In this document: piece after piece, positions 10,885-52,727 of the stretch
How the letters are laid out: every line of letters begins with the position of its first letter
Position numbering within the stretch: the stretch's first letter is position 1
Source of the DNA: Roseinatronobacter domitianus
GTDB lineage: Bacteria; Pseudomonadota; Alphaproteobacteria; Rhodobacterales; Rhodobacteraceae
Assembly (NCBI RefSeq): GCF_023336755.1
Contig: NZ_JALZWP010000007.1
Coordinates: 124,001-188,000 of the forward strand
Length of the DNA: 64,000 bases
Direction: 5' to 3'
Translations under genes and position numbers: made by a program
The notes under the pieces: model-generated
Seen by the model: only the letters and a program-made list of their open reading frames with translations
The model's database searches: none
What the model was told of the DNA's origin: nothing

Positions 10885-10906
10885 CCAGACGCAGCCTCAT
10901 GAACGC

Positions 10907-10947
10907 AAAAAGGCGACAGTCCCAGGGAGGAGGAGGGGACTGTCGCC
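10907..10947 (-). terminator. Rho-independent terminator formed by the last CCTCCTCCC hairpin
   Basis: On the minus strand a perfect 12-bp stem (GGCGACAGTCCC with its complement) closes a loop containing CCTCCTCCC. It is followed directly by five T residues (A run at 10907-10911 on the plus strand). It ends the transcript that starts upstream of the DUF1127 gene and is at once the second hairpin of the third sRNA unit. Confidence 0.85.
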
Positions 10948-10983
10948 GATTTTGCACGACCCCAGGGAGGAGGAGGGGGCCGT
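10912..10983 (-). ncRNA. cuckoo/CcsR-like sRNA, unit 3
   Basis: Two hairpins 8 bp apart on the minus strand. The first (10983-10956) has an 8-bp stem and CCTCCTCCC in the loop (complement of 10965-10973). The second (10947-10912) has a 12-bp perfect stem and the same loop motif (complement of 10925-10933) and doubles as the terminator. Paired hairpins presenting an anti-Shine-Dalgarno motif are the hallmark of cuckoo RNAs; Rhodobacter sphaeroides CcsR1-4 belong to that family. The boundaries are inferred from the hairpins, not from transcript ends. Confidence 0.78.
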
Positions 10984-11014
10984 CACAATGTCATGGGCCA
11001 ATGGCCCGGTCGTA

Positions 11015-11083
11015 GAAGCCCCGGCAGGGAGGAGGACGCCGGTAGCCTCGCGATCGCCCTCGGGAGGAGGGTAAGGGCGGTCG
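11015..11083 (-). ncRNA. cuckoo/CcsR-like sRNA, unit 2
   Basis: Two adjacent hairpins with only 1 bp between them: 11083-11051 (stem of about 10 bp with one mismatch, loop motif opposite 11062-11070) and 11049-11015 (stem core CCGGC/GCCGG plus flanking pairs, motif opposite 11027-11035). Both loops show CCTCCTCCC on the minus strand. The unit is set apart from unit 1 by 46 bp and from unit 3 by 31 bp, spacing that fits processing of one precursor into three RNAs. Confidence 0.75.
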
Positions 11084-11129
11084 TTTCGTGCCGCAGTCCG
11101 GTTTGACAGGCCGGCGCGGTAGTTCTGGC

Positions 11130-11192
11130 GACGACTGAGGGAGGAGGAAACAGTCGCCGCCGTAGTCAAGCCCCGGGAGGAGGATAGGGCCT
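11130..11192 (-). ncRNA. cuckoo/CcsR-like sRNA, unit 1
   Basis: Two hairpins 9 bp apart: 11192-11168 (7-bp stem including G-U pairs, motif opposite 11175-11183) and 11158-11130 (8-bp stem GGCGACTG with CAGTCGTC, motif opposite 11139-11147). It begins about 6 bases after the DUF1127 stop codon, so it is cotranscribed with that gene, exactly as CcsR RNAs follow a DUF1127 gene in R. sphaeroides. Confidence 0.75.
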
Positions 11193-11197
11193 GAAAC

Positions 11198-11410
11198 TCA
11201 ATTCTCGAACGCTGCCTCATATGCGAGGCGCGAAATCATCGACCGGCTGATGCCCAGATCGTCCAGCTCTCGCGTGGACAGGGCGTTCAGCTCGGCGTAG
11301 GTTCGATTATACACACGGCGACGTGCGAAGGCTTCCGACAAGCGAAAGAAAAAGCCACCGAAGGGCACGCGAACGCTACCTGTGCCGATATTTTCTGCAA
11401 TATGTGCCAT
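11198..11410 (-). CDS. DUF1127 protein, CcaF1-like
   Basis: A 70-residue basic protein with the DUF1127 core (YAELNALSTRELDDLGISRS) at its C-terminal half. Small DUF1127 proteins are common in alphaproteobacteria. In R. sphaeroides the one encoded just upstream of the CcsR sRNAs (CcaF1) binds RNA and promotes maturation of those sRNAs. Here the gene is likewise the first element of an sRNA array, so the same role is the best inference. ATG 11410 is preceded by AAAGGTG at suitable spacing. In Rhodobacter the locus is driven by heat-shock-type sigma factors; I could not define a promoter here with confidence. Confidence 0.9.
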   Translation of the reverse strand: MAHIAENIGTGSVRVPFGGFFFRLSEAFARRRVYNRTYAELNALSTRELDDLGISRSMISRLAYEAAFEN

Positions 11411-11532
11411 TTTGATGCACCTTTATGTTTCATCGTGGCCGGGCTGGCCTGTTGCTAATCAAAATAGGCAAATGCTGCGACCGCACAATGCAAGATGCTG
11501 CAATGCCGCTATGCGCTAGAGTCATGGTTACG

Positions 11533-48409: not shown

Positions 48410-49510
48410 TTACTGAAGCATCCAGTTAGCGAAACGCTCGCGCAACTCGTCGCCATAGTCGGCCCAGAAGTCGTTATCCAGAACGATGGGTGCGAAGTAG
48501 TTGTCGGGCGCACTTGGCATATGCGGCGCCATGGCAATGCCCAGATCGGCGTGCTCACCAACCAATGGTGCCGAGGATGCGCGTGCCGGGCCATAGCTGA
48601 TGAACTTGGCCTGATCCGCCAGACGCTGCGTGTCGGTGGCGAAATACAGGTAGTCCATCACGGCGTCGACATTGTCGCCTTGCGCAGGAACAACCCAGCC
48701 GTCCCATTCCACGATCTGGCCGTCCCAGATGATCGCGGCGTCCATGCCTTCAACTTCGATCGCGTCGAACATACGGCCATTATAGCCGGTTGCAAACGCG
48801 ACCTCGCCATCTGCCAGAAGCTGGGGTGCTTGTGCGCCTTCAGTCCAGAAGATGATCTCGTCCTTGATGGTATCCAGCTTGGCGAAGGCACGGTCTACGC
48901 CTTCCGGGGTCGCCAGCACGTCGTAGATTTCGTCGAGCGCTACGCCATCGGCATAAAGTGCCCATTCCAGGTTCGTGCCGGGACGGTCTTGCAGCGCACG
49001 CTTGCCGGGGAAGTTTTCCAGATCGAACAGGTCCGCGATCGAGTCTGGCTGTTCGCCTTCGAACGCGCCGGGACGTGCGGCCAGAATGGTCGAATACAGG
49101 ATCTGCGGGATGAAGCAGTCACCGAGCGAGCCGGGCAGGAAGTCTGCGCTTGCGGGCGTGCCATCGGGGGCAGGGGCCAGCATGGCATCATGGTCGATTT
49201 CCATGATGATGCCTTCGTCACAGGCGAGCTGTGCATCCGACGGCAGCATGTCGACCAAATCCCACGTTACGTTGCCTGCCTGACTTTGCGCGCGCAGACC
49301 GGCCAGAGCGTTTGCCGAACCATCGTCGTTAATGATGGTCACATTGGGATTCGCGGCCATGTAGGGCTCGTGATAGGCGCGTTGCTGGCTGGCAGTGTAA
49401 GCGCCGCCCCACGACACTACGGTCAGCGAGACCGGGTCTTGGGCCGCTGCACTCAGGGCCATCATGCTTGCCGCCGAACTTAGCGCGATTAACTTGAACT
49501 TGTTAGTCAT
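48410..49510 (-). CDS. periplasmic polyamine-type binding protein, PotD/PotF-like
   Basis: Substrate receptor of the importer, 366 residues, signal peptide 1-23 (ending SAAAQ). The mature part starts VSLTVVSWGGAYTASQQRAY, the usual strand and ligand loop of this cluster, and has the acidic and aromatic residues expected of a cation pocket (WDLVDMLPSD, then GDNVDAVMDYLYFATD). It follows the ATPase gene after 94 bp and precedes the permeases. Confidence 0.9.
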   Translation of the reverse strand: MTNKFKLIALSSAASMMALSAAAQDPVSLTVVSWGGAYTASQQRAYHEPYMAANPNVTIINDDGSANALAGLRAQSQAGNVTWDLVDMLPSDAQLACDEGIIMEIDHDAMLAPAPDGTPASADFLPGSLGDCFIPQILYSTILAARPGAFEGEQPDSIADLFDLENFPGKRALQDRPGTNLEWALYADGVALDEIYDVLATPEGVDRAFAKLDTIKDEIIFWTEGAQAPQLLADGEVAFATGYNGRMFDAIEVEGMDAAIIWDGQIVEWDGWVVPAQGDNVDAVMDYLYFATDTQRLADQAKFISYGPARASSAPLVGEHADLGIAMAPHMPSAPDNYFAPIVLDNDFWADYGDELRERFANWMLQ

Positions 49511-51014: not shown

Positions 51015-52445
51015 TTACAACCCTTTGGCGCGGTAGCTATCTGCAACCCGCGTGATCGACACGATGAAGGCTGCCGTGCGCAGGTCGATGACATCGTCGC
51101 GGCGATGCCATTCTTCGGAAATCGCCTGATAGGCGGTGCGCATCGTGTCATCCAAACCCGAACGCACCAGTTGCAATTCATCGGCACCTTGCAGGTATTT
51201 CTTCTTGAAATCGGGTGCCAGTTCCCATCCAAGCTCTTTGTCGGCAGAGAGGCGTTCCAACTCGCGCACCAGTGCCATTGCATGGGCTTCCTCGTTGCGG
51301 CGTTGCATGCGCCCGAAGCGAATATGCGACAGGTTCTTGACCCATTCGAAATAGGAAACCGTGACCCCGCCCGCATTGGCATAGAGGTCGGGAATGATGA
51401 CGATACCCTTGTCGCGCAATATCTGATCGGCGCCTGCGGTAATCGGACCGTTTGCGGCTTCGATAATCAACGGCGCGCGGATGCGGTCGGCATTTCCCAG
51501 ATTGATGACGCCTTCCAAAGCCGCCGGGATCAGGATGTCGCAGTCTTCTTCCAGAACTGTGGCGCCCGTCTCTATGAAGGTCGCTGACGGAAACCCTTTG
51601 ATGCCGCCATACTGCCTGATCCACTCGCGGACCGCGTCCGGGTCCAGCCCGCCGTGGTTCAGGATCGCACCGTCGCGTTCTATGATTGCCGTGATGATTG
51701 CGTCATCTTCTTCACGCAGGAACTTGGCGGCATGGTAGCCCACATTGCCCAGACCCTGCACGATCACCCGCTTGCCTGAAAGGCTGCCGGTCAGACCCGC
51801 TTTCGCCATGTCGTCGGGGTGACGGAAGAACTCTTGCAGAGCATATTGCACGCCGCGCCCCGTCGCTTCCACCCGGCCCTTGATGCCGCCGGAATTGAGC
51901 GGTTTGCCGGTCACACAGGCGCGCGCGTTGATGTCGGTGGTGTTCATGCGCGCGTATTGGTCTGCGATCCAGGCCATTTCGCGTTCGCCCGTGCCCATAT
52001 CCGGGGCGGGAACATTCTGCGCTGGATGAATCAGGTCGCGCTTGGCCAGTTCATAGGCGAAACGGCGGGTGATCTGTTCCAGCTCGTGTTCTTCATATTT
52101 GCGCGGATCGATGCACAAACCACCCTTTGACCCGCCAAAAGGGGTTTCGACCAAGGCGCATTTATAGGTCATCAGTGCTGCCAGCGCCTCGACCTCGTTC
52201 TGGTCCACCTCTGGCGCGTAGCGGATGCCGCCTTTTACCGGTTCCATATGTTCGGAATGCACCGCGCGGTAGCCCACGAAGGTTTCAATTTTGCCCCGCA
52301 ACCGCACCCCGAACCGCACCGTGTAGGTCGAGTTGCAGATCTGAATCTTGTCTGCCAGCCCCGGCGGCAGGTCAAGATATCCGACCGCGTGGCGGAACAT
52401 GATATCCACATTCTCGCGAAAGCCCGGTTCTGTCGTGGCGCGCAT
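51015..52445 (-). CDS. gdhA: glutamate dehydrogenase (Glu/Leu/Phe/Val family)
   Basis: NAD(P)-linked oxidative deamination of glutamate to 2-oxoglutarate, or the reverse. It has 476 residues from ATG 52445, chosen for the strong GGGAGG before it; the frame continues 31 residues upstream. Substrate-binding motifs are present: PVKGGIRYAPEVDQNEVEAL, the catalytic lysine in ETPFGGSKGGLCID and the Asp in NVPAPDMGTG. The Rossmann fold shows IVQGLGNVGYHAAKFL. Leucine-type activity cannot be wholly excluded, but length and motifs favour glutamate. Confidence 0.92.
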   Translation of the reverse strand: MRATTEPGFRENVDIMFRHAVGYLDLPPGLADKIQICNSTYTVRFGVRLRGKIETFVGYRAVHSEHMEPVKGGIRYAPEVDQNEVEALAALMTYKCALVETPFGGSKGGLCIDPRKYEEHELEQITRRFAYELAKRDLIHPAQNVPAPDMGTGEREMAWIADQYARMNTTDINARACVTGKPLNSGGIKGRVEATGRGVQYALQEFFRHPDDMAKAGLTGSLSGKRVIVQGLGNVGYHAAKFLREEDDAIITAIIERDGAILNHGGLDPDAVREWIRQYGGIKGFPSATFIETGATVLEEDCDILIPAALEGVINLGNADRIRAPLIIEAANGPITAGADQILRDKGIVIIPDLYANAGGVTVSYFEWVKNLSHIRFGRMQRRNEEAHAMALVRELERLSADKELGWELAPDFKKKYLQGADELQLVRSGLDDTMRTAYQAISEEWHRRDDVIDLRTAAFIVSITRVADSYRAKGL

Positions 52446-52727
52446 AAAATCCTCCCATTGCAGACGCTGAAGCTGCGTCAATTTGCTATCTTGATTCGGA
52501 CAGTAACAGGTTAACGGCATCGCGAAACCCTGCTGCACAGGTGTTTTGGGAGACTGGCCCGCAGGGCGGAAAGTTCAGTCCGTTTCCCTAAAAATAGGCT
52601 AAATTGCGGTGAAATCGCACTGGAATTCGCCCTGGAAAAGCCACGGAGCAGAGGCGATTACATGTGGAGTGTGATACTTTGCGCCTAGCTCAGCTTGCCT
52701 ATGGCGGTTGTAAACTAGGTGTGTTTT

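Follow-up and report, generated by a model that had tools for sequence, protein, structure and literature searches.

Amongst described systems, the closest to the locus considered here is the ccaF1-CcsR1-4 operon of Rhodobacter (Cereibacter) sphaeroides, which is described as having an RpoHI/RpoHII promoter, ccaF1, the small RNAs CcsR1-4, a terminator and processing by RNase E (PMC10253847, PMC7866481). Cleavage of the precursor by RNase E is accompanied by participation of the DUF1127 protein (PMC10253847, PMC8307010) and, as an excess of CcaF1 is reported to interfere with CcsR maturation (PMC8307010), the role of the protein in cutting is not a simple one. The CcsR effects named in the available text of two reports concern flhR, C1 metabolism, the glutathione pool and pyruvate dehydrogenase, and not transporters (PMC8307010, PMC8625941). 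For the same system, two stem loops bearing an anti-Shine-Dalgarno motif are described in RS0680a (PMC3927594). Other anti-Shine-Dalgarno RNAs are relevant to the comparison: NfeR1 represses the mRNAs of substrate-binding proteins (PMC8844928), targets ntrB at its ribosome-binding site and is described as Hfq-independent (PMC10746234); AbcR1/2 (ar15) apply an anti-Shine-Dalgarno seed, CUCCUCCC, to ABC transporter mRNAs (PMC8844928).

Comparison of sequence and predicted structure supports placing the present locus amongst these as CcsR/cuckoo-type, a three-unit version of a known stress-RNA locus. It lies on the minus strand of the window (the whole 64,000-nucleotide stretch of Roseinatronobacter domitianus DNA that was analysed) and opens with a gene for a 70-residue DUF1127 (CcaF1-like) protein (11198..11410), recognised in the first-pass annotation and borne out by a PF06568 score of 52.5 bits against a cut-off of 23.3. 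With a two-sequence alignment as query, the nearest relatives of this protein in named genomes were those of Roseibaca ekhonensis (87% identity), Roseibaca sp. Y0-43 (83%) and a Natronohydrobacter metagenome-assembled genome (75%), the protein of Cereibacter changlensis JA139 being more distant. Directly downstream on the same strand, as in CcsR/cuckoo loci, the motif CCTCCTCCC occurs six times, each time in the loop of a hairpin, and the hairpins fall into three pairs, as proposed at first reading and now upheld by motif counting and folding. Unit 1 comprises hairpin 1 (11166..11194, motif 11175-11183) and hairpin 2 (11127..11161, motif 11139-11147), unit 2 hairpin 3 (11051..11083, motif 11062-11070) and hairpin 4 (11015..11049, motif 11027-11035), and unit 3 hairpin 5 (10952..10988, motif 10965-10973) and hairpin 6 (10912..10947, motif 10925-10933), all six motif copies being on the minus strand. 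In 100 shuffles of the window CCTCCTCCC occurred 0.45 times on average and never more than three times; of the 12 copies found across the genome (3.36 Mb), half lie in the array.

Two details of the initial description of these hairpins needed adjustment. The pairs are recognisable, and motif-to-motif distances are 36, 77, 35, 62 and 40; because gap lengths vary with where the stems are taken to end, the gaps themselves are corrected to 4, 1 and 4 nt within pairs and to 43 and 26 nt between them. The stems, which had been called unrelated, are so only in part, as GGCGAC is common to the 5' arms of hairpins 2 and 6. Flank shuffles that left the motif in place (n = 500) equalled or exceeded the stability of hairpins 1 to 6 in fractions of 0.024, 0.002, 0.042, 0.044, 0.014 and 0.000, respectively. 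Scored by enclosing pairs alone, the same shuffles gave 0.21, 0.45, 0.008, 0.026, 0.16 and 0.002; since hairpins 1, 2 and 5 are unremarkable by this number (21, 45 and 16% of shuffles), it is covariation that constitutes the firm evidence for the stems. As a whole, the 291-nt array stretch folds with a z of -5.2, and none of 200 shuffles was equally stable.

Paired motifs are present in 35 of 37 genomes of the genus, that of the window included, and were not found in the other two (G300 and G310). Setting aside three truncated or split arrays leaves 32, every one of which carries six hairpins at nearly fixed distances (median motif gaps 36, 77.5, 39, 66 and 40). R. ekhonensis CECT 7235 likewise possesses an array of six hairpins. 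The arrangement of paired hairpins in tandem units, typical of CcsR/cuckoo (CIN1) loci and first proposed from the window, is thus kept in 32 of 32 arrays across the genus; likewise, the observation that there are three units and not four stands, though as a constant of the genus arrays and no peculiarity of the window genome. The motif is exact in 188 of the 192 hairpins, with four arrays each containing one mismatched copy, a count somewhat biased because the arrays were found via exact motif pairs.

For covariation, the 24 loci with six exact motifs amongst the first 30 of the genus were aligned, yielding 55 pairs in ten helices with 95.8% of cells paired. Change on both sides was seen in 31 of the 55 pairs, a number reached in none of 500 shuffles, and sliding partner columns by one to three positions reduced pairing to 33-55%. 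The helices span all six motif hairpins: helices 1 and 2 fall in hairpin 1, helix 3 in hairpin 2 (two-sided change in seven of ten pairs), helix 5 in hairpin 3 (83.7% of cells paired), helices 6 and 7 in hairpin 4, helix 9 in hairpin 5 and helix 10 in the 12-bp stem of hairpin 6 (100% of cells paired). They also span two hairpins that lack the motif and are an addition to the first reading of the locus. Linker hairpin A (11091..11119, minus strand), at the boundary of units 1 and 2, is consensus helix 4, with 97.9% of cells paired and one pair that is G-C in 18 and C-G in six of the 24 sequences; in this region, the lowest-energy fold of the window gives a hairpin in a slightly shifted register. 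Linker hairpin B (10995..11007, minus strand), at the boundary of units 2 and 3, is helix 8 (88.3% of cells paired; two of five pairs changed on both sides). At a guess, the linker hairpins may aid cutting or act as spacers between units.

Upstream of the DUF1127 gene, a scan for sigma-70 promoters gave no match, and an RpoH-type promoter is predicted at 11462..11488 (minus strand), with TTG at 11488-11486, CTATTT at 11467-11462 and an expected start near 11453. The RpoHI/RpoHII logo has TTG at -36 to -34, followed by C-14, T-13, A-12, T-11 and T-9 (PMC3441632); the window agrees with it in sequence, with a spacing 1 nt shorter. TTG and TAT are invariant in 24 aligned upstream regions of the genus, and TTG, a spacer and TATNT recur in 32 of 32 genus arrays (CTAT in 25 of 32). 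Just upstream of the -35 element is a further block, GCGCATAGCGGCATTGCAGCAT (11495-11516, minus strand), most positions of which are invariant in 24 sequences of the genus.

At the other end of the array, hairpin 6 is followed by a T run (10907..10911, minus strand) that lies 22 nt from the stop codon of the convergent gene fliP. Hairpin and T run together have the sequence features of a rho-independent terminator, and hairpin 6 is likely to serve as one, as the first-pass annotation had suggested. Defined as at least five T in some 7 nt situated 8-34 nt beyond the last motif, such a run is kept in 31 of 32 genus arrays and in 68 of 79 arrays overall, and follows 16 of 435 inner hairpins. A stock terminator scan, which admits loops of 3-8 nt, reported none at hairpin 6, the loop of which is 12 nt. 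Read on its plus strand, the array presents GGGAGGAGG six times immediately beyond the fliP stop.

The absence of any match to two-hairpin cuckoo models in a covariance search had been set beforehand as one outcome that would refute the proposed identity, and it did not come about. The search returned full-length matches to CcsR1 (RF02791) for unit 3 (43.9 bits, E 5.5e-9) and unit 1 (35.2 bits, E 2e-6), both below the gathering score of 65.3, and a partial match for unit 2 (18.1 bits, E 0.23); no match of the array to any Rfam model reaches a gathering score. That of CcsR1 is too strict for the kind, because at the Cereibacter changlensis locus only one of six units passes (unit 1, 94.1 bits), units 2-6 scoring 40.3-56.0, below 65.3. 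For this reason the locus is placed in the CcsR/cuckoo kind by its anatomy, outside both RF02791 and RF02344. Membership in the latter (ar14) was rejected on a score of 48.4 bits, short of the 58.8 required for gathering, with the first hairpin of the model falling on a motif-less stem. Matches to RF01066 (6C; 29.9 bits, E 0.16, gathering score 47) and to ar7 (below cut-off) were likewise set aside, and for RF02345 (ar15/AbcR) the genome contains no covariance match with an E of 1 or less. The cuckoo-family identity first suggested by likeness to the CcsR RNAs of R. sphaeroides is supported by the CcsR1 matches, the pairing into units, the linkage to DUF1127, the T run after the terminal hairpin, and the presence of CCUCCUCCC in every hairpin loop on variable stems, again a feature of CcsR/cuckoo (CIN1) RNAs. 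Four genomes of the same genus contain a second, solitary two-hairpin unit elsewhere (L097-L100), for which no upstream DUF1127 gene was found; the two that were scored, L097 (56.9 bits) and L098 (54.6 bits), match CcsR1 better than any unit of the window.

Beyond the genus, CcsR/cuckoo RNAs are widespread: the paired motif occurs in 217 of 295 genomes of the family, and few targets are named in the available portions of the literature. The 49 loci outside the genus (two each from three genomes, and including one pair lacking real stems) hold 2 to 26 hairpins, 38 an even and 11 an odd number, where one motif mismatch was permitted and sizes may be lower bounds limited by the sequence stretch taken. 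In the 30 even arrays of at least four hairpins, the median gap within pairs (41) is clearly distinct from that between pairs (65). The largest array, with 26 exact motifs behind a DUF1127 gene, consists largely of a near-identical three-hairpin repeat of about 140 nt, pointing to recent tandem amplification. When 12 genomes lacking the exact paired motif were searched with CcsR1, four matched at E <=0.01, so that genomes scored as array-less have in part been missed by the exact pattern; the best of these matches (35.5 bits) equals one unit of the window. At the same threshold 2 of 14 control genomes also matched, rising to 12 of 14 at E up to 10. One weak CcsR1 match (21.7 bits) was dropped as it lay, by eye, inside transporter genes.

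The loop pairs through seven of its nine bases with GGGAGGA, and a genome scan for GGGAGGA-N2-9-ATG found 55 sites against nine for the reversed pattern. Removal of four reading frames shorter than 60 aa and two duplicates leaves 49 genes, amongst which 19 encode solute-binding proteins (nine SBP_bac_1, three DctP, three TctC, two NMT1_3 and two Peripla_BP_4); others encode two UgpC-type ATPases, an ABC permease, SoxX, SoxA, glycerol-3-phosphate dehydrogenase, malate-CoA ligase and glutamate dehydrogenase. Starts preceded by AAAGGAG (38 sites, less three short and one unrecovered) include one solute-binding protein in 34 (Fisher p 1.4e-4 against 19 of 49), and those preceded by AAGGAGG none in 25 (30 of 36 loci read, less five short or duplicate entries, with several sites shared with the AAAGGAG set). 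As the family tables for these controls list only part of the families (25 of 58 and 25 of 46, respectively), a phmmer comparison of the controls with these 19 proteins was added, and gave one match for AAAGGAG and none for AAGGAGG. The link between GGGAGGA and solute-binding proteins is a correlation in one genome; as a new lead drawn from sequence comparison, it suggests that stress puts a brake on the uptake of nutrients, and our best guess is that the targets are genes of uptake and side metabolism, above all solute-binding proteins.

Within the window, the first-pass annotation had singled out the ribosome-binding sites of two genes, and both are as it described: GGAGG precedes the gene starting at 1957 (minus strand), which a sequence motif identifies as glyA, and GGGAGGA precedes gdhA (start 52442, minus strand), whose product matches NCBIfam models of glutamate dehydrogenase at scores short of the cut-offs. 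The gdhA site, GGGAGGATTTTATG (52443..52456, minus strand), is a candidate target by predicted pairing. Elsewhere in the window, a solute-binding gene (48413-49510, minus strand) that precedes one for a PotB-like permease has the leader AGGAGGT and is a counter-example to the target rule. Two of the six genomic GGGAGGAGG sites beyond the array precede an ATG, by 4 and 7 nt, opening a gene for a 369-aa UgpC/MalK-type ATPase and an MFS gene of at least 330 aa; the remaining four have no convincing start codon.

Across the family, GGGAGGA starts are denser in genomes with an array (median 22.3 per Mb) than in those without (15.3; p 3e-7). The size-corrected p is 0.003, and the association is counted as weak because relatedness is uncorrected and the count for one array-less genome, G184, is inflated by a repeated element: GGGAGGATGGATCATG and GGGAGGATCAGCCATG recur there many times, in genes whose proteins, where read, are transposase-like by eye. 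Of 180 sites in G184, 15 loci were sampled and five read, two of the five being solute-binding genes; in array-less G265 (148 sites), the 13 usable genes from 15 sampled loci included no solute-binding protein by eye. Since genomes scored as lacking an array also have GGGAGGA starts, in G184 on solute-binding genes, the bias in start sites is not due to the array of the window alone.

The DUF1127 leader itself, AAAGGTGC, lacks GGAGG. Amongst 75 leaders of DUF1127 genes that precede such arrays (including four duplicate genomes, and one in which an internal ATG was used), GGAGG is found in none, GGAG in two and AAGG in 46; amongst 57 window genes, over a shorter leader stretch, GGAGG occurs in six and GGAG in 12. 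Pairing between the window leader and the loop is predicted at -2.3 kcal/mol, and 7% of window genes pair equally weakly or more weakly. Self-exemption of the DUF1127 gene is best regarded as a lead and not a test, because the leaders are related and in a few cases duplicated, and because gene starts in the window were called automatically.

Alongside the hairpins, unit pairing, covariation, genus-wide conservation, DUF1127 linkage and promoter-like and terminator-like sequences observed here, we consider it likely that the locus works as a CcsR/cuckoo-type operon, and infer expression, processing and repression by the array RNAs. From an RpoH-type stress promoter, a single transcript of about 550 nt would carry the DUF1127 gene followed by three two-hairpin RNAs, with transcription stopping at hairpin 6 through its stem and T run. 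If processing follows the R. sphaeroides pattern, the 3' portion would then be cleaved, with the involvement of RNase E and the DUF1127 protein, to yield three small RNAs. Each of these would display CCUCCUCCC twice in a loop, a copy of the anti-Shine-Dalgarno sequence of 16S rRNA extended by CCC, and these loops would block ribosome-binding sites that read GGGAGGA. A more ambitious version, which we put forward tentatively and hold to be less likely than not, regards GGGAGGA as a start-site code. The solute-binding proteins of ABC, TRAP and tricarboxylate systems, together with soxX, soxA and gdhA, would use GGGAGGA; as the loops cover this site over seven bases, one stress signal would close nutrient uptake in bulk; the DUF1127 gene would escape its own RNAs because its leader uses AAAGGT; and hairpin number, from 2 to 26 by locus, would determine how strongly the switch acts.

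One alternative reading is that six anti-Shine-Dalgarno loops act as a bulk decoy, binding many sites weakly and damping translation generally under stress in the absence of defined targets. A short, nearly invariant motif repeated up to 26 times in one locus would suit such a function, as would the GGAGG and GGAG leaders counted above in the window; yet the best-matching start sites are non-random, with 19 of 49 belonging to solute-binding proteins, and we judge this reading to be unlikely. Less plausible still, and in our estimation improbable, is that the hairpins serve chiefly to stabilise or process the DUF1127 transcript, the protein being the active product. Conservation of the motif-less linker hairpins and of a strong 3' hairpin is in keeping with this, and one report describes Agrobacterium DUF1127 proteins as able to work via protein contacts, a function that CcaF1 complemented (PMC12501420). 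Stability would have no need of a particular loop sequence, however, and the 9-nt loop is exact in nearly all hairpins of the genus (the count being subject to the bias noted) whilst the stems vary.

That the array is a product of chance, a purine-rich repeat or the by-product of an overlapping gene has a negligible probability. A reading frame of 107 aa (10897-11220, minus strand) does remain open across it, but has no Pfam match, and neither a frame nor a repeat sits with covariation over ten helices and spacing kept in 32 genomes; the covariation in 24 aligned arrays rules this reading out. Operation as a CcsR/cuckoo-type operon with GGGAGGA targets would, if true, account for a near-frozen loop alongside drifting stems, and the GGGAGGA link offers a list of 49 candidate target genes in one genome. 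A literature search, judged on titles and the openings of abstracts amongst the matches listed, brought up no paper that we recognised as concerning the locus or the target link, parts of which the primary CcsR papers may contain.

Set against known systems, the window follows the order described for ccaF1-CcsR1-4 of R. sphaeroides, with a DUF1127 gene, tandem RNAs and a 3' terminator, and differs in having three units where R. sphaeroides has four and in stems that depart from the Rfam CcsR1 consensus. Covarying motif-less linker hairpins are a further feature seen in the window. The rhizobial ar14/NfeR1 RNA (RF02344) has hairpins with a loop motif identical to that of the window, but is described with three motif hairpins where the window has two per unit, and its best alignment in the window puts model hairpin 1 on motif-less linker B. 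AbcR1/2 (RF02345) carry a like seed, act on the class of gene proposed as target for the window array and differ from it in architecture. Were the proposed targets to prove true, CcsR arrays would be the Rhodobacteraceae counterpart of NfeR1 and AbcR.
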